This document shows, in pieces, positions 7,321-61,975 of a DNA stretch of 64,000 bases. A program made the translations under genes and the position numbers. Source of the DNA: Phytoseiulus persimilis (taxonomy: Eukaryota > Arthropoda > Arachnida > Mesostigmata > Phytoseiidae); NCBI GenBank assembly GCA_037576195.1, contig CM075101.1, forward strand, positions 33,542,001 to 33,606,000. The letters are read 5' to 3'. The notes below the pieces were generated by a model. The model was not told the DNA's origin. It saw only the letters and a list, made by a program, of their open reading frames with translations, and ran no database searches. How positions within the stretch are numbered: position 1 is the first letter of the stretch; each line of letters starts with the position of its first letter.

Positions 7321-7926
7321 CAGAGTTGGGCAGATTCGAATCAAAAACCGTCGAATCAGGCTGATTCGAATCAAAAGTGATTCGAATCATTTTGATTCGA
7401 ATCAGGATCGATCATCTGATTCGAATCACACGTTTCGAATCACTCTGATTCGAATCAGAAAATGATTCGAATCAAAATTTGATTCGAATCAAATTTTGAT
7501 CATTTTCTGATTCGAATCCTTACTACATATACTCGGCTTAGTCCGGGACCAGTCTGACCATACTTTTCAAAAGCTGGAGGGGTGATTCCGAGACCAATCT
7601 GAGCATCACTTCCCAGTTGTTCCCAGAGTTGGGAAGTAATGCTCAGATTGGTCACGGAATCACCCCTCCAGAGTTGGGAAGTAATGGCCAGATTGGTCTC
7701 GGAATCACCCCTCCAGAGTTGGGAAGTAATGGCCAGATTGGTCTCGGAATCACCCCTCCAGAGTTGGAAAGTAATGTGCGGACAAACTGACAAACTAAGC
7801 CGATCATATATAGTAGGGATTCGAATCAGAAAATGATTCGAATCAAAAATGATTCGAATCAGGATCATCGAATCACATCTGATCCGATCTGATTCGAATC
7901 CAATGATTCGAATCTGCCCAACTCTG
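7321..7926. mobile_element. hAT-type MITE built from GATTCGAATC repeats
   Basis: This 606-bp non-autonomous DNA transposon starts with CAGAGTTGGGCAGATTCGAA and ends with its inverted complement, ending in TCTGCCCAACTCTG. It is flanked by perfect 8-bp direct repeats (atatgcgc). CAG-starting termini and an 8-bp duplication are typical of hAT elements. There is no transposase frame. The outer parts (7331-7518 and 7817-7916) hold 14 exact copies of the self-complementary decamer gattcgaatc in both flanks, so each arm is full of overlapping hairpins. The centre (about 7520-7820) is a different element, the 45-bp-repeat family, with its own inverted ends. Identical target duplications and intact ends suggest recent insertion. 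Confidence 0.85.
7520..7820. mobile_element. 45-bp-repeat element, inverted copy inside the MITE
   Basis: The ends TTACTACATATACTCGGC (left) and GCCGATCATATATAGTA (right) are imperfect inverted repeats. Just inside, one 45-bp unit lies in minus orientation (about 7565-7618) followed by about four units in plus orientation (7624-7780), so the element folds on itself with the centre near 7620. The plus side finishes with gcggacaaactgac and a TATATATAGTA stretch, the same tail as at 30427-30475. It is a short member of the family seen at 27991-30475, 45947-46440 and 61758-61975. There is no coding capacity. Confidence 0.7.
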
Positions 7927-27702: not shown

Positions 27703-27769
27703 CCAGTTACCTGTACCCCAGTTACCCGAATCCAAACTTCCCTCTCTCACCGCTAAATCCTCATGCGCT
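27703..27769 (+). repeat. Left 67-bp inverted repeat of a transposon-like unit
   Basis: This segment matches the reverse complement of 31503-31569 along its full 67 bp with roughly eight mismatches. Both copies start outside with CCAGTTACC and contain a duplicated CCAGTTACC block. The 3.87-kb interval between them contains the MULE transposase relic, so these may be its terminal inverted repeats. No matching 9-11 bp target duplication could be seen outside them. Confidence 0.65.
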
Positions 27770-28036
27770 GAAGCTCCAAGTCCGATCCGCGCGTCGACAG
27801 AACTTCGGAAGTTCGAGTCAGCCAATACTGCCTCTCCCTCGAGGATGACGTTATCCAAGAGATCTAGTCTTCTATCCCTTTTTACTGTTCTCATCCTCAT
27901 ACTTTTTCGTCAAGTTACTTGTTAAGAACCAGCCGGCCCTTGGCCTTGGAGTCGGCCGTGCAGAACGCGGTTGGACGGCGCGCCCTGCCATCGAGGCACT
28001 TTTCTCTCTCTTCACATTATGATTTTGAAAAGTATG

Positions 28037-29630
28037 GTTAGATTGGTCCCGGAATCACCCCTCCAGAGTTGGAAAGTAATGGTCAGATTGGTCTCGGATT
28101 CAATCCTACAGAGTTGAAAAGTAATGGTCAGATTGGTCTTGGAATCACCCCTCAAGAGTTGGAAAGTAATGGTTAGATTGGTCTTCGAATCACCCCTCCA
28201 CAGTTTGCAAGTAATCGTCAGATTGGTCCCGAAATCACCCCTCCAGAGTTGGGAAGTAATGGCCAGATTGGTCCCGGAATCACCCCTCCAGAGTTGGAAA
28301 GTAATGGCCAGATTGGTCCCAGAATCGCCCCTCCAGAGTTGGAAAGTAATGGTCAGATTGGTCTCGGATTCAACCCTCCAGAGTTGGAAAGTAATGGTCA
28401 GATCGGTCTTGGAATCACCCCTCCAGAGTTTGAAAGTATTCGTCAGATTGGTCCCGAAATCACCCCTCCACAGTTGGAAAGTAATGGCCAGATTGGTCCC
28501 GGAATCAACCCTCCAGAGTTGGAAAGTAATAGTCAGATTGGTCTCGGAATCACCTTTCCAGAGTTGGAAAGTAATGGCCAGATTGGTCCCAGAATCATCC
28601 CTCCAGAGTTGGAAAGTAATGGCCAGATTGGTCTCGGATTCAACCCTCCAGAGTTGGGAAGTAATGGTCAGATTGGTCTCGGATTCAACCCTCCAGAGTT
28701 GGAAAGTAATGGTCAGATTGGTCCCGGAATCACCCCTCCAGAGTGGGAAAGTAATAGCCAGATTGATCCCAGAATCACCCCTCCAGAGTTGGAAAGTAAT
28801 GATCAGATTGGTCTCGGAATCACCTCTCCAGAGTTGGAAAGTAATGGCCAGATTGGTCCCAGAATCAACCCTCCAGAGTTGGAAAGTAATGGTCAGATTG
28901 GTCTCGGATTCAACCCTCCAGAGTTGGGAAGTAATGGTCAGATTGGTCTCGGATTCAACCCTCCAGAGTTGGAAAGTAATGGTCAGATTGGTCCCGGAAT
29001 CACCCCTCCAGAGTGGGAAAGTAATGGCCAGATTGATCCCAGAATCACCCCTCCAGAGTTGGAAAGTAATGATCAGAATGGTCTCGGAATCACCTCTCCA
29101 GAGTTGGAAAGTAATGGCCAGATTGGTCCCAGAATCACCCCTCCAGAGTTAGAAAGTAATCGTCAGATTGGTCCCGAAATCACCCCTCCAGAGTTGGAAA
29201 GTATAATTTTTTACCCTCCCGCCAGAAAAAAAAAGAGTTGGAAAGTAATGGCCAGATTGGTCTCGGATTCAACCCTCCAGAGTTGGGAAGTAATGGTCAG
29301 ATTGGTCTCGGATTCAACCCTCCAGAGTTGGAACGTAATGGTCAGATTGGTCTTGGAATCACCCCTCCAGAGTTTGAAAGTAATCGTCGGATTGGTCCCG
29401 AAATCACCCCTCCAGAGTTGGAAAGTAATGGCCAGATTGGTCCCGGAATCGACCCTCCAGAGTTGGAAAGTAATGGTCAGATTGGTCTCGGAATCACCTC
29501 TCCAGAGTTTGAAAGTAATGGTAAGATTGGTGCCGGAATCACCCCTCAAAGTTCTAAAAAGTATGGTCAGATCGCTTCCGCAATCACCTCTCCAGACTCG
29601 GGAGAGTATGTTCAGATTGGTCCCGGAATC
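28037..29630 (+). repeat. 45-bp minisatellite, about 35 units
   Basis: Each unit reads approximately ggaatcacccctccagag, ttggaaagtaatggtcag, attggtctc (45 bp in total). Because 45 is a multiple of three and the unit lacks stops, frames of 342 and 469 codons run through it, encoding a 15-residue repeat. Units differ mostly at first and second codon positions (Leu/Pro, Gly/Arg, Ile/Phe, Thr/Asn), so there is no sign of protein-level constraint. A six-unit block of 270 bp is itself duplicated (28621 onward and 28891 onward). A short foreign stretch at about 29205-29235, including an A-tract, interrupts the array. Confidence 0.95.
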
Positions 29631-29639
29631 AACAATAAA

Positions 29640-30366
29640 TTCGCTCATAAATCGGTGAGAAATCATCCGGTTCTGGACTTTTTTTTTCGGCGTTCGGCAT
29701 TCGAGAGTTGGAAAGATGGCGCATTTTTTTCTCTCGATTTTTGTAAATCAGTAGAAAACTGAATTTCCCAAATCGGCTCAAATGTCGCCTTTTTTTCAAG
29801 TTTTCTCAAAAAACCTTTCGGCAAACTTCTGAAGTCGACCGATCGGATTCGAAAGTGTCAAGGTCGACGCAGGGAGGGATTCTGCTCAAACGCCCGGCAA
29901 CTCCAAATTTCTAGCTCAGGATCAGGAATTTTCCGATGGAAGAAAGTTCTTAGATTGGTCCAAACTACCCGACGAAGAAGTTCACGTCGATCCGACAACT
30001 GTTTCAAAAAATCGAGGAGGCGGGATTTTCGGGGGGAAAAAATTTGTCGGATCGACCCGTAAACTTCTTCGTCAGGCAGTTTGGACTAATCTAAGAACTT
30101 TTTGCCATTGGAGAAATCTGGAGTTGCCGGGCGTTTGAGCAGCATCCCGTCCTGCGTCGACCTTGACACTTACGAATTGGATCGGTCGACTTCAGGAGTT
30201 TGCCGACTGCTTTTTTGAGAAAACTTGAAAAAAAATGCAATATTTGAGCCGATTTGCGAAATTCAGTTCCAGGGAATATCGAGAGGAAAAAGATGCGCCA
30301 TCCTCCCAGCTATCGAATACAAAAAAAAGTCCAGAATCGGATAATTTCCCACCAATTTATGAGCAA
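29640..30366. repeat. Long palindrome, arms of about 320-360 bp
   Basis: The left arm (about 29640-29998) and right arm (about 30044-30366) are reverse complements with scattered mismatches and a few indels around a 45-nt centre (29999-30043). Easily checked pairs are cgatccgacaa (29988-29998) with ttgtcggatcg (30044-30054), caaacgcccggcaactcc on the left with ggagttgccgggcgtttg on the right, and gctcataaat near 29643 with atttatgagc near 30355. Transcripts through it would form a near-complete hairpin RNA. Confidence 0.9.
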
Positions 30367-30478
30367 AAGAAGAGCGAGTAAGAAAATTCCCGACTTACGA
30401 TGACCACCCTGTATCCTCGACGGGTGCGGACAAACTGACGAACTGACAGACTAAGCCGATTATATATAGTAAGGATTG

Positions 30479-31215
30479 TTAAAAATTGAATGCCACCAAG
30501 GGGACATACTGGATGCGGGTAATCTCTCGGAACTCGAACTGTTCTGTAAATTTTATGATGTTCTCATTGGTTCTCTCGTATTTCGGGTCCGGCTTTGGTG
30601 CATTCTGCCCGTTGCGAAGCAACAACATCTGTGCTCGGTAGATCTCCTCTTGTTCTTTGAGTCGATATATGATCTCGGGGATGTTCCCGCGTTTTTTCGC
30701 TACCAGCGAATTGAAACCGGAATGCCATCCCTCCAGATGGTTTGTGGTACGAACTCCGCAGTTGTGGTAGTGATTCCACATCGCGCGGGGAAACACGGTC
30801 TCGTTTTCGAGCCACGTAACCACGTTATAGTCTTTGAAACATAGTTTCCGCGGCCTCATGGGCTGGATGATTCACGTCGGGGGAGCGCGCATTCATTTCC
30901 AACCAAGCCTCATCCAGCTGCTGGAGGGGAACCACGGACAACGCTGTACAAGAGCGCCGCAGTTTTTTTATTTCACTGTCGTTGTTGAACTGACTGAGGC
31001 CCAACTGTTGAACTTTGCGCCAGATACATTGGGCAAAGTGAAATCTACAACCCTTGATGTCGGCCAAGGGAAACGTTTCTTGGATCGCCCTGACGGTCTC
31101 GATTTCGAAGTCGATTGGAAAAGTTCTCGGACTGAAAACTAGATCGATGGTGATCGCGTGCTGACGAGAACAGCCCGCATGTGGACCGAACAGGACAGTC
31201 GCGTCAATACTGCCA
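30479..31215 (-). pseudogene. MULE-family transposase relic
   Basis: This is a C-terminal portion of a Mutator-like transposase. Reading on the minus strand from about 31215 are FSPRTFPIDFEIETVRAIQ (the DFE block with the following AI..FP), then IKGCRFHFAQCIWRKVQQLG (matching GCxFHFxQxxWRKxQxxGL) and CTALSVVPLQQLDEAW (the LxALAFLPxxxVxxAF block). The frame is lost near 30830-30850, and the next frame carries FPRAMWNHYHNCGVRTTNHL followed at once by EGWHSGFN, the hallmark TNNxVEGWHxxF motif, ending at a stop at 30479. The N-terminal part with the first catalytic Asp is absent or unrecognisable. The frameshift and truncation indicate an inactive copy. It lies inside the 67-bp inverted repeats at 27703 and 31503. 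Confidence 0.85.
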
Positions 31216-31502
31216 TCGCCTGCTCTGCTGCGCGCGCTTTACGGGGGATCCGGCAACACACCGGAGGACTTAGTAGACCCCGCGAGTTTTGGTCGGGGGT
31301 TCCCATGATTCTCAAGCCATATTTGTATGTCGCACGTAACATCTGAGGCTGGAAATTTGTGGAAATGCACTGTACACTGCGCTGTACTTCACTGCGCGAA
31401 CACGACTTAGTAATCGTATGGGTTCAACCCTTCTCGCGTTAAAGGAGTGGATATCTCTTTCAGTCAGTTTCTATGCTTCTCCTAGGAATCCGTCGTGACT
31501 CT

Positions 31503-31569
31503 AGAGCGTGAGGATTCAGCGGTGAGAGAGGGTAGTTTGGATTCGGGTAACTGGGATTCGGGTAACTGG
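31503..31569 (-). repeat. Right 67-bp inverted repeat of a transposon-like unit
   Basis: The inverted partner of 27703-27769, with the duplicated ggtaactgg blocks on its outer side. Together they bracket the MULE relic and the 45-bp-repeat element. Confidence 0.65.
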
Positions 31570-32291
31570 GAAAGGATACGGCATCGAGCCGGCTCTGGCT
31601 GTGTGCATGGTCCGGCGTGGTTGCCGCACGCGCAATGCATCCAAAGACTCTCTTCACCGCAGTGAGCCGGAATCGAACTGAAACATCGAGGGTCGTTTAC
31701 GATCACGCGCTCCCTACGCCGCCGAGATCGTGTCCAGTGTAGTCGACGAGTATTCTTCGCTCCCACTGAAATTCATTGAAATGTGCAACGAGGATCGAAC
31801 CGCCGCCCGTTTTTCCGTTTGTTGTCGCCTCCGTCAAAATCCTCACGATGCACAGCTTTGAATGGCCGCCATGAAAAGCCAGAGCGTGCGGTTCGGCCGG
31901 AGCGTCCCCGTTGGCGACGAACGCCCACGTCCCAACGACCTGCTGAGAACAGCTCCCAGACCGCAGGGCAAACCTGCACCTGCGTTTCGAGACCAGTAAA
32001 CTTTACGGCTATCTGAGCGGTCGATTATGCGAACGGAAGGACAAGCCAGCTGGTCTGGAACTCACTCGGCCACAGCACAGACTCGTGCCGCCCATCCCGA
32101 GTGGGAATGCGGCTCACACTACAACATGACAGAAAGCCTCCGAGTTCCCCCTAATTCTTCAAGGATCTGTGTCCCCGAAGCTTCCCCAATTATCCTCTGC
32201 TCGACAGCTGGTCAGACCTCCCATCAAGCAGTTCGGGAGTGGGCACAGAAGCGCTGACCTAGGGATTACACTTTCCGGGATCCCGGGCTAT
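31570..32291. other. No recognised gene; tRNA-like boxes only
   Basis: Minus-strand matches to a B-box-like GTTCGATTCC (about 31668-31680) and GGTTCGATCC (about 31790-31800) occur, but neither has a paired T-stem, so no tRNA gene is called. They may be traces of tRNA-derived SINEs. Confidence 0.3.
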
Positions 32292-44660: not shown

Positions 44661-45946
44661 TTCTGCCCATTCGAAGGCTCGATTGGCGTGAACTAGTATG
44701 CAGGGGAGGCAGCACCTATCCAAGCCAGGAGAGGTGGGATGGGCCAGGGTCCGTTGCCGGCATTGCACACTGAGCCGTTAAATTTTGGAACCGAATGAAT
44801 ATAGAGATAAGTGTCACATTACAAGTGTGATACCGTAGGCTCCGTGGTATTCAATTAGACTGAGCGGGGCTGTAGAAGACAGTACGTCGAGTTCAAAGAC
44901 GGACAGAAACACATAATACTACTCCAACATACACAGCGCAGAGTCGCACTCCGATGGGAACCGCGCTCCAAACAACCACTGGATCAGATTGTCACCAGGA
45001 TGAGTGAGTTCTCGCACTGGGTGAGTTTCCAACTGTGGACTCGGAGAGGAGGATCTTTTCTAATGCCAGAAACTTCAGCTAGTTGAGCTGGAGAACCGGC
45101 CCGAACAATCAACTAAAGCAATGGCGAAATCGGTCTGGCTCAGCGTCGGGGTGATACTCAGACAGATCGCTCCCAGATCCCATCATCTGTAGGCGCCCGC
45201 TCCGATCGAAACCCAAGAGCAGACTCCCGATTCATCGCCCCAACCTGAACGGTATTTAGAACGAGTGCAAGCGGGTCAGTAATTGGAAAGTATAATTTGG
45301 GAAGGAGTTGAAATTCGAACCAAAAACAAGCGATGAAAATTATTTTCCAAAGAAGTTTTTTTTTCCAAAGTCAAAACTAGTTCTTTCCGCCTCGCACCGC
45401 ATTTGGCTCCCGGTGCTCCGACGCACCGTGCGGCCGCGAGCAATCCGCAAACCACTGCGGTCACTGGAGGAGCGGCAGGAAGTCTCCCATGAAGACTGAA
45501 TCTTCCGACATGATAACAATCCCAAGCAGTACACCGACGAAGTGGTTGCCTGGCCTAGGATCAATCAAATGAGAGTTCTCATGGTGCCTTCTCAATCGCT
45601 GGATTTCAAGCCGATTGAACCTCTCTGAGAAGGTCGAAATACGAGTCGGACATTAGACTGAGAACAATGAGGAATCGCGGTGTCGAAAGTTGATTCGAGT
45701 GAATGGTGCTTAGCTGCAGCAGAGCACTACATTGATCTATGTAGCCTGCATCTGATATTGCCCACTTCGCAAAGTTCGTGGGTGAGCCAATATGATCTAA
45801 CTAGCCGGCCTTCGGCAGACTACGCTGGCTGGCCCGTCCCTTGCTTCGGGAGTCTACTGCTGACAGACACACCTTGCCTAACATGTGGTGTCATCGGGAC
45901 ACCTTCGGGGGTGGCCACCGATTCTCGATAGGATTCTGACCTGGGA
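44661..45946. other. No recognised gene
   Basis: Only short frames. Upstream of the next repeat element, agccggccttcggc near 45804 resembles agccggcccttggc near 27934, suggesting that the left ends of the two large 45-bp-repeat elements extend further than the leader. Confidence 0.35.
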
Positions 45947-46440
45947 TCGAGGCACTTTTCCCTCTCTTCACTGGGTCAGCATTAAGGTTTCGAGAAGTGA
46001 TGGTCAGATTGGTCTCGGAATCACCCCTCCAGACTTGGAAAAGTATGGTCAGATTGGTCCCGGGATCACTCCTCCAAACTCGGAAAGTAATGGTCAGATT
46101 GGAGACGGAATCACCCCTCCAGGTTTTGGAAAGTACGGTCAGATTCGTCTAGGAAGCACCCCTCCGGACTCGGAAAAGTATTGTCAGATTGGTCCTGGAA
46201 TCACCCCTCCGGAGTAGGAGAGTGATGGCCAGATTGGTCTCGTAATCACCCCTCCAGAGTTGGAAACTAATGACCAGATTGGGTGGCCTATGTCCTTCCC
46301 GGTGAGTCGCCCTACATTATGCAGTTTGTTCCAAGTCGATCCGATCAATACCGGAGGAGCCTATTGAGGACAAACAAACAAACAGACAAACAAACAAACA
46401 AACAGACCCTGGATTTTTATATATATAGATATGCTCAACT
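45947..46440 (+). mobile_element. Third copy of the 45-bp-repeat element
   Basis: The leader tcgaggcacttttccctctc (45947 onward) matches the leader at 27991. About six diverged 45-bp units follow (45999-46275), recognisable by attggtctcggaatcacccc and related blocks. A (CAAA)n/(CAGA)n-type stretch starting aggacaaacaaacaaacaga (46369-46411) then leads into tttttatatatatagatatg. The order of leader, 45-bp units, GGACAAAC-type microsatellite and TATATATAG is the same as at 27991-30475 but without the long palindrome. The tail resembles 3' ends of some non-autonomous elements; no superfamily is assigned. Confidence 0.7.
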
Positions 46441-49709: not shown

Positions 49710-50839
49710 CTAAGCCAAGAGAAGCCGTCGACGAAGAAGTTGGATGACCTCGAAAACGTTCAGCGTGACTCGCTCTTCGGGCTCGCTGAAGACGTCCTGC
49801 CCCGTGAGAATCGTCACATCATCTCCTCGAGTCTCGAGCAGTATGTATCCTCCGAATTGTGGTCGGGTGTGATTGAACTGAGGTAGAAGCGAGTTGAGTA
49901 AATCGAGAACGTGGACGTCCGTCAAGCCGTAAACGCTCGCGCTCTTCCTGATGTTCCTCGGAGGAGAACTCTGTCTGCTGAATTCCTGCAGTTCCTCTTT
50001 GACTCTCCTCACGATAGCTGAGCACTGCGAAGGAACGCAAAGTTCTGTCAGCTTTGCGAAGGCTCCTTCGGGGACAAGTTTGGCTCCTTTCGGGATGCAC
50101 TGGCCCAGGTTTATTCCAAACGCTTCACCGGTGTATCCCGATTGAACCAGAGTGTCGATTGTGTCTGCTAACTGAGCTTTGAACAGCACTTCGGCCAATG
50201 CCGAATCTTTTGGCGGTAAGTTCTCCTTTGCCGGCGTGACTACTTTGGTCACAGCCTCTTGCACACAAGCCGGGAGCTGAATTCCGATGGTTTCGCTGAG
50301 AACTGGAAGCAGCAACGTAACATTGATGTCAACAAGATCGATCATATGCAGAAAATCGCTTCCAAACTTCACAATATTCAAGCCTTCGATGATAGCTTCT
50401 GCCGTTTCAATACAACGGGACTGATTCGCCGGCATCGACGTCACGGCAGGTGATGCAGCGAAGAAACTCGGGTACCACTGGCGCAGTCGTTCGCCGAATT
50501 CTTTCTCCAGACGATACCCTTGGGCCGTCAGGCCTGCAATCTACAATAGAGTTCGACAAGGCGTGACCTACATGTTCGAGATCATGCAACCATAGAACAA
50601 ACGGTGAATATTTAGAACCCCTTCACGGTACCTAGAATGTGGAGTAAGCAGTCAAGGAAATCCAGTTTCTAGAGACTCACGACAAATTCTCCGAGCTCAG
50701 GTACCGGGAACAAAGGATTCCTTTCACCGTGACGCGCCAATATTTGCAAATGATCTAACACGCTGCCGTCTCGGGCGCAGACGATCGCTCCGATGTTGAC
50801 CGAAGCCATTAATACAACGAAGAGCACGGACGAGCCCAT
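49710..50839 (-). CDS. Histidine acid phosphatase-like secreted protein, HD motif altered
   Basis: Two exons, 50681-50839 and 49710-50540, are joined across a 140-bp GT-AG intron (donor gtgagt, acceptor ttgtag) in phase 0, giving 329 residues. Residues 1-21 form a signal peptide (hydrophobic LFVVLMASVNIGAIV). Then comes ILARHGERNP, the catalytic loop of branch-2 histidine phosphatases, with His37 expected to carry the phosphate. Exon 2 opens with GLTAQGYRLEKEFGERLRQW, matching the family's QLTxxGxxQxxxLGxxLR block, and QSRC supplies the conserved second Arg (Arg95). Near the C-terminus, the usual SAHDTT segment reads GLTDVHV, so the substrate-binding His is Thr260 while Asp261 remains. The protein is shorter than the usual 400 or so residues. 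It would be secreted or lysosomal, removing phosphate at acid pH if active; loss of the HD His makes a weakened or non-enzymatic role possible. A degraded duplicate lies just upstream at 51134-52264. Confidence 0.8.
50541..50680 (-). other. Intron of the acid phosphatase gene
   Basis: This 140-bp intron has donor gtgagt (complement of 50675-50680) and acceptor ending ctattgtag. It separates the signal peptide and RHGER loop from the rest of the protein. The duplicate has an intron at the corresponding position (51956-52108). Confidence 0.75.
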
Positions 50840-51133
50840 CGAGCAACGGTCAGATTTTCGAAACTGATGTCAGGGGAGAATGGTCCACGAATCGACTGAC
50901 TTCTGATGAGTATTCAACGCACGCTGCTTGGAGAGACCACGATTGTCGTTAAGCTCGTGGATCAGCGCGGCCATCGGCTGACGATAACGGCACCGAACTC
51001 CTTCGCTAGCAGCTGTCGATGAGTTTGTCAGATATTCGAAATGGGAATCGCCAGTACTTAAAACCTTCACATGGAAAAACCGTTAATTCACCCTTTCCAT
51101 ACAAATCGAGTAAACGATTTTCGCTCGGTTGAT

Positions 51134-52264
51134 CTATGACTCATCAGCATTTGAACGGGATGGCCACTTTGAAAACTTGAGATCCACTAAGTCGCCGGGG
51201 AACGATTGTTTTCGATGTTTCAGGACTGCAAGGTTGATCCTAGTGCGAAGCAACTGTATAACCTCGTGAATATTCAGCGTAACTCGTCGTTGTGGCTCGC
51301 TGAGGAGGTTCTGCCCGGTAAGAATTGATGAGTCGTCTTGTCTTACCTCCAGCAGTATGAATCCACCGAATAGCGGTCTGCTGTGGTTGAATTGCGGTGG
51401 GAGGGATTGGAGCAGATCCAGAACATGAGAACCTGCAAGTTCGCAGACGCTGGTTCTGCGAGACACGGATCTCGGCGGTGAACTCTCCTCGATGAAGCTC
51501 TGAAGATCTTCCATTACTCTAGAGATGATGCTGACGCACTGATGGCCTTCTTTCGTCATGAGTCCCATTCCGGGCGGCACGCATGTCTCGATGTTCATCC
51601 CGAAAGCTTCCCCGTGTAACCTGCTGGAAGAGTCATTTGAAAATGCCGGTAACAATGCTCGAAAGATTCGCTCCCATTACGGGGCTCGCGTTACTCCGAG
51701 CCGCTCCCATGCATGGTGGTAACACAGTCTCATTGGCCTGTTCTATAAGCGGCGTCAAGCTGGGTACGTCATTCGGATCCCAGATGAAAATCGTTTCCAA
51801 TCACCCATGGCAGAAGAGTCTGATCGAAAGCCGGTCGAGGATCGTGACCGTGGTCTTTACACCACGAGGAAAATTGCGGGTATCGCTCTGAGAGTCAGGA
51901 GTCAGGAGCCATAGTCTTTCTCAGTCTCGTAACCGTTGGGTGTGAGCCTTCCCAGCTGGAGAAGAATCGAACAGATATTCAATCAGAGACTCCAGGGCTG
52001 CACCGGGCGGTGGCTCGTAATCCTTGTGGAGCTCTAGCTGCTGGAAGCATCGTCTCACAACCGTTGCGTCCTCCAAACGATCGGAACTCATACATAAGTA
52101 TTTATCACGACGAAGTCTCTGAACTCGCGCACCAGGAGCAAAGGGTGTCTCTCTTCATGGCGCCCGAGGACAACTGGATGATCAACTGCACCGAGCTCGT
52201 CTTCAGGAAGAGTGCGACCAAATATCCCGACGGAGGAAAGACTTGGTGCTAAAAAGATGTGCAT
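51134..52264 (-). pseudogene. Decayed tandem duplicate of the acid phosphatase gene
   Basis: Exon 1 (about 52109-52264) still reads GRHEERHPLLLVREFRDFV, aligning with ARHGERNPLFPVPELGEFV of the neighbour, but the catalytic-loop Gly is Glu and the donor is gtgata. Exon 2 starts at 51955 after a ctccag acceptor with LGRLTPNGYETEKDYGS, meets a stop where the partner has Arg, changes frame near KTTVTILDRLS, passes a second in-frame stop, and shifts frame twice more near 51610-51640 at homopolymer runs (AAA and GGGG). Downstream of this the 51134-51640 frame is open and clearly homologous (GEAFGMN, SSPPRSVSRRTSV, HVLDLLQSLPPQFNHSRPL). The HD position reads AG. Multiple independent lesions point to a true pseudogene; the two homopolymer shifts alone could be sequencing error. 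Confidence 0.75.
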
Positions 52265-61757: not shown

Positions 61758-61975
61758 GGTGATTCCGAGGCGGATCTGGCCATACTTCTCGGGATCTACG
61801 GTGGTAATTCCAGGGCCGCAGCTGTCACCAGGAAGTCGATAGCCGTCCCCCTATTTCTTGAGGTGATTTGTTCCGAGTTTTCCAGTTTTTCGTCCTCGGA
61901 GGAAAAACTGAATGGGTGACGAGCGAGAGAAGAAAGGGTCGGACAATTCCCGACTTTCGTTGACCACCCTGTACG
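61758..61975 (-). mobile_element. Fragment of the 45-bp-repeat element family
   Basis: Diverged 45-bp units in minus orientation: ggtgattccgaggcggatct (from 61758) is followed by ggtaattcc exactly 45 bp later (from 61803). About 140 bp further on is attcccgactttcgttgacc (from 61948), continuing into accctgta, which matches the end segment at 30385-30412 apart from a few bases. This places a minus-oriented unit inside the same element end and supports the inverted, foldback-like organisation of the family. Confidence 0.65.

Follow-up and report, generated by a model that had tools for sequence, protein, structure and literature searches.

The 45-bp tandem repeats in this region belong to mobile elements that are almost certainly non-autonomous Helitrons, with an autonomous sister that encodes a RepHel protein. 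We assigned the elements to this class because they have two unlike ends of the TC...CTRR type, are inserted between A and T without a target duplication, and share their structure with an autonomous copy that encodes Rep and helicase. The same evidence overturns the foldback class proposed in an initial annotation of the window (the 64,000-nucleotide stretch analysed here, C1:33542001-33606000, in a genome of 181 Mb and 127 contigs). This corrects an assignment that would otherwise be misleading for repeat annotation.

TRF analysis of the window identified an array of 35.8 copies of the 45-bp unit at 28025-29631 (84% matches), and arrays related to this unit at 7623-7776 and 45995-46282. The three arrays cross-matched at ~72–93% identity in a self-comparison, which also revealed a leader region common to two element copies (27984 vs 45940). 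The unit had been reported at four loci; three of these are arrays, and the fourth (61758-61812, plus strand) is only a degenerate remnant, one to two units long, with short matches to the family arrays.

Both ends were read for the two main copies, which lie on the minus strand. Copy 1, of subfamily A, spans 2547 bp, later insertions counted, from its 5′ end at 30475 to its 3′ end at 27929. It comprises a 5′ end (TCCTTACTATATATAATCGGCTTAGTC..., 30427-30475), the array of 35.8 units (28025-29631), and a 3′ region with the leader and a GC-rich end (...GGCCGGCTGG, 27929-28024) that is common genome-wide. Copy 2 (subfamily B; 629 bp, ~6.4 units) extends from a 5′ end at 46429 to a 3′ CTAG end at 45801. 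The shared leader and tail described initially are real, both being parts of defined element ends (the tail is the 5′ end of copy 1); the elements extend beyond the bounds first given, to 27929-30475 and 45801-46429. In a third, Helitron-derived piece (7517-7819), two 5′ ends face outward and the arrays are inverted; this piece lacks a 3′ end and is flanked by A and T. Self-comparison confirmed the inverted units noted earlier near 7.5 kb (~7535-7615 vs 7623-7776).

Genome-wide searches showed that the family is abundant. The unit pattern had 55,712 matches at ≤3 mismatches, which at 45 bp each amounts to ~2.5 Mb, or ~1.4% of the genome. We also observed 532 matches to the leader, 336 to the subfamily A 5′ tail (≤2 mismatches), 341 to the subfamily B 5′ tail, and 841 to the family 3′ end (≤2 mismatches). 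Every reversed control gave 0 matches; given the counts for the unit and the leader against none in their controls, the matches are not due to chance. In most of 30 oriented leader loci, a precise common end (CYAGCCGGCCTTCGGCC) lay slightly outside the leader and was followed by unrelated flanks. The common end was recognised in 23 of the 30, the other seven having no end recognisable by the loose pattern used. On the side opposite the leader, these loci shared tails that fell into the two subfamilies A and B. Units were present in 29/30 leader-centred loci, and inside the tail in 60/60 loci centred on a tail (for each tail, its first 30 exact matches; some loci overlap). The units showed no sign of coding constraint: in the two most open frames, the share of units with stops was close to that of a column-shuffled control (0.072 vs 0.077 and 0.097 vs 0.109 shuffled; 927 distinct units of 2252, one control).

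The ends carry Helitron hallmarks. The 5′ end begins with TC in both subfamilies (TCCTTACTATATATAA in A, TCTATATATATA in B), and the 3′ end is CTRR (CTGG in A, CTAG in B) in 22 of the 23 recognised leader loci; one departs, and the loose 3′-end pattern used for this count itself favours these letters. Read on the minus strand, the window copies have the form TC...CTRR with a GC-rich 3′ end. Hairpin folding used other 3′ ends of the family rather than the diverged copy 1. In subfamily A, a 10-bp stem formed right at the terminus (z −2.4 to −2.5; 5/200 shuffles as good), and by eye a GGCCGAC/GTCGGCC stem is possible 13 nt from the end. The 9-bp stem of subfamily B was not significant (z −0.66; 47/200 shuffles as good). 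We rejected a self-cleaving ribozyme at the GC-rich end, as Rfam searches covering ten of the 30 leader loci (E up to 5) detected none. All five matches to miRNA or lncRNA families in those ten loci scored under the gathering cut-offs, and two of the five lay on inverted units; at gathering thresholds, Rfam returned nothing over the window.

All 21 distinct copies with both ends were flanked by A and T (22 rows, one locus appearing twice; nine pairs were joined by position, the array between them unread). Because the tail patterns ended in T, the flanking T was predetermined in 14 of the 21 copies; it was independent of the search pattern in seven (L002, L005, L024, L025, L028 and both window copies). 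The A before the end was present in 23/23 leader loci with a recognised end. A candidate target duplication was absent in 20/21 copies, and mismatched pairings of flanks produced candidates in 4/462 cases. The sole candidate was copy 1, whose flanks contain a 10-bp near-repeat.

Copy 1 sits in a MULE-like host transposon (27703-31571) whose inverted repeats, 67 bp each, lie at 27703-27769 and 31503-31569; the host's MULE domain match was weak (E = 0.0037, below the cut-off). Many partial copies of this host occur in the genome, and seven host copies span the joint. We read four of these as empty sites, and all four showed A joined straight to T, with no duplicated target sequence. In two of them, the straight join gave 44/51 and 42/51 ungapped identities, whereas a 9–10-bp duplication gave 27–29 identities of 41–42, or 20–22 if left-anchored. 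The remaining two of the four had the same straight join, and the other three host copies that span the joint aligned 262, 256 and 236 bases for 250 query bases. The straight joins mean that there was no duplication at the copy 1 site, and the near-repeat in its flanks is explained by the empty sites. The target duplications sought since the initial annotation were thus absent at this site, as were candidates in the other 20 copies.

More than 30 other places matched the left 150 bp of the host transposon, and several of these had an inverted end at a distance of a few hundred bp; a MITE family probably derives from the host. At L086 (C1:27318722 region), one Helitron copy interrupts the array of a second copy, in inverted orientation. 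Joining the flanks of the inserted copy, ...CCGGGA and TCAATCTGAGC, gives a normal unit of the array, which again hints that insertion at A|T leaves no duplication.

We searched the genome for the enzyme domains of autonomous Helitrons. PF14214 (Rep) had 101 matches, with control matches in 0/14 named genomes, and PF05970 (PIF1 helicase) had 81, with control matches in 3/14. An autonomous copy of subfamily A was found at C3:24444749-24453759. Its 1951-aa open frame (C3:24450345) matched both PF14214 (1.4e-61) and PF05970 (7.2e-53). Downstream, 217 nt separate the stop codon from the family 3′ end. Upstream, 5.6 kb from the Rep match, is the family 5′ end, followed immediately by the array (L117), and the last array unit, at ~C3:24447262, precedes the coding region (L118). 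The claim of autonomy rests on these ends, array borders and domains, C3:24445331-24447249 and C3:24447751-24453449 being unread. The search for an autonomous copy suggested in the initial annotation thus yielded one that shares the family's ends and array, but its enzyme is a Rep/helicase of the Helitron type.

A 311-nt query made of the RepHel coding end and 3′ end gave 42 matches when the best 40 of 382 candidates were scored. Among the matches listed, and besides the query itself, the full query matched at 88–90% at C3:23613119, C1:1979445 and C1:21106832; at C3:23541032-23542072 and C119:27224-28262, its coding end and 3′ part matched as two pieces ~0.7 kb apart. A further RepHel locus (C3:18593592) matched positions 1-287 of 311 at 85%, so without the last 24 nt. 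PF14214 and PF05970 matches lay nearby on the same strand at all these loci except C1:1979445, where the only nearby domain match was to PF05970. At least 33 further places among the matches listed matched only the terminal 47–56 nt of the RepHel copy (93–98%), and seven of these are non-autonomous copies with ends read (including those in L006, L013, L016 and L017).

Other loci were recorded alongside this copy. C2:45171039-45173463 was rejected as a partner of subfamily B, a matching 3′ end being absent from the 1.3 kb examined. At C2:6.25-6.57 Mb, many leader matches lie ~10–15 kb apart or more, five with decayed Rep domains ~1 kb away; this cluster looks like a segmental amplification. At the autonomous copy of subfamily A, four 5′ tail matches follow one another (C3:24444286-24444777). 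Helitron 5′ regions also occur in tandem at L035 and L041-L044, with a length of ~330 bp in subfamily B and a restart at an ATAGAT-like word.

Foldback transposons have long terminal inverted repeats that contain tandem units, and their target-site duplications are ~9 bp. A foldback or MULE-type foldback origin, with the arrays inside such repeats and cut-and-paste movement leaving a 9-bp duplication, would account for the presence of both array orientations at 7517-7819 and in inverted compounds elsewhere (L064, L073, L086/L087, L023), and for the position of copy 1 inside a MULE-like element with a 10-bp near-repeat at its ends. We consider this origin highly improbable. In copies 1 and 2, as in most of the loci examined, the array runs in a single orientation between two unlike ends, with no long terminal inverted repeats containing units; the duplication is absent in four empty sites; and the family 3′ end is also carried by RepHel loci. 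The inverted arrays, found in some copies only, look secondary. Tetris has internal tandem repeats able to seed satellites. The elements described here resemble it as mobile elements with internal tandem repeats but lack the defining features of a foldback transposon. Tetris itself, a Drosophila foldback transposon, is mentioned in PMC7492417.

There is likewise very little chance that the family is an SVA-like non-autonomous retrotransposon, in which the array would be a VNTR spread by target-primed reverse transcription. A microsatellite-like tail adjoins one end, and in L071 and L093 a LINE coding end lies directly beside the array, as that origin would lead one to expect. However, in L092 and L094 the 3′ end of this LINE, AATAAATCGCTATT, abuts flanks that differ, which indicates that it was merely inserted in the arrays; 20/21 copies have no duplication candidate and the remaining one has no real duplication; and a RepHel partner exists. 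We therefore rejected the non-LTR reading, in which the near-repeats flanking copies 1 and 2 were taken as duplications and the LINE of L071 and L093 as the partner. An ordinary dispersed satellite with random flanks would fit the very high unit count and the long arrays, but its probability is close to nil given precise common ends on both sides, each with hundreds of genome matches. The mobile family with common ends recognised in the initial annotation withstood this comparison, and the evidence together favours non-autonomous Helitrons.

Several unrelated elements interrupt or adjoin the Helitron copies. A separate palindromic transposon lies inside copy 1 (29640-30413), consisting of a 728-bp palindrome and one terminus (TACAGGGTGGTC...), the other terminus being missing. 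The core of this terminus had 583 genome matches, with at least 18 inverted pairs 0.6–2.5 kb apart among the 100 places listed. The terminus occupies 30361-30413 and recurs in the window at 61921-61973 (side locus ~61921-61975). These two segments had been counted as an end segment of the 45-bp family; they belong instead to the unrelated inverted-repeat transposon, a diverged relative of which occurs in L050. The array of copy 1 also contains a LINE 3′ tail remnant of ~30 bp (CCCGCCAG, then an A-run; 29204-29234, plus strand), and the same tail is found in arrays at L091 and L093. The LINE with the 3′ end AATAAATCGCTATT, which has no poly-A, was inside 45-bp arrays in 2/4 copies examined (L071, L093), one of the four having been chosen for its nearness to a tail; a target preference of this LINE for the arrays is possible. 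The Helitron piece with two 5′ ends is hosted by a palindromic element of TGATTCGAATCA repeats with CAGAGTTGGGC ends (7323-7925), which we take to be hAT-like.

The structure of the family suggests how it may have moved. The RepHel protein, with its Rep HUH nuclease and PIF1-type helicase, would nick at the 5′-TC end, and one strand would be peeled off by rolling-circle replication until this halts at the 3′ hairpin-CTRR end. The freed strand would then be joined between the A and T of a target, which would not be duplicated. An autonomous copy that lost its coding part would retain the 5′ end, the 45-bp array and the 3′ end, and this short form, presumably mobilised in trans by the autonomous sister, could then have spread to hundreds of places. 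Changes in array length may reflect replication slippage or unequal exchange.

Helitrons and Helentrons bearing tandem repeats are already known (PMC7492417, PMC4067079, PMC4683698), and, judged by the published descriptions, the 45-bp family is a new example among them. The closest parallel in these is rice Mothra (DHH_Mothra), a non-autonomous Helitron with a TC 5′ end, a CTAG 3′ end, a 16-bp hairpin 13 bp from the 3′ end, and an interior of tandem-repeat blocs of variable number (two blocs of ~six repeats each); its putative mother element carries an RPA gene and no RepHel, and it has a putative autonomous sister family (PMC4683698). The 45-bp family shares the TC and CTAG ends, the hairpin, and an interior of tandem repeats that vary in number. 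Unlike Mothra, it is built on a single 45-bp unit that reaches dozens of copies, and the array is also present in the element that encodes RepHel, at the 5′ end of that element.

The Cg_HINE Helentrons of the Pacific oyster are non-autonomous rolling-circle elements that spread satellite-like central repeats without target duplication and could not be related to an autonomous element (PMC7492417), and DINE-1/HINE elements are described as simple deletion derivatives of autonomous partners (PMC4067079). The present family resembles both as a non-autonomous rolling-circle element that spreads satellite-like repeats without target duplication. Helentrons have subterminal inverted repeats and T-rich insertion sites (PMC7492417, PMC4067079), whereas here the ends are of the Helitron type and insertion is at A|T; in place of a T-rich site flanked by Ts, an A preceded the end in all 21 copies and all 23 leader loci. 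Inspection by eye showed no subterminal inverted repeats in the present family. In contrast to the oyster elements, an autonomous element is linked to the family. The 45-bp unit was not mentioned in the available parts of the literature on tandem-repeat Helitrons and Helentrons, with which it was compared by description rather than by sequence. The family clearly illustrates the seeding of a minisatellite over ~1.4% of a genome by a rolling-circle transposon. With an enzyme-coding partner linked through both ends and the array, it offers a good system for the creation and spread of tandem repeats by Helitrons.

The array lies directly inside the autonomous 5′ end, and both subfamilies, A and B, retain it although the sequences around it differ. 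On the strength of this arrangement, the array might be a working part of the Helitron, such as a repeated protein-binding or replication-restart site, which we regard as doubtful. If so, the tandem 5′ ends and the outward-facing double 5′ ends would be traces of rolling-circle re-initiation. Elsewhere in the window, two related open frames on the minus strand (49710-51676) gave the impression of histidine acid phosphatase genes. The assembly has four large contigs (55, 52, 39 and 28 Mb), which suggest n = 4.
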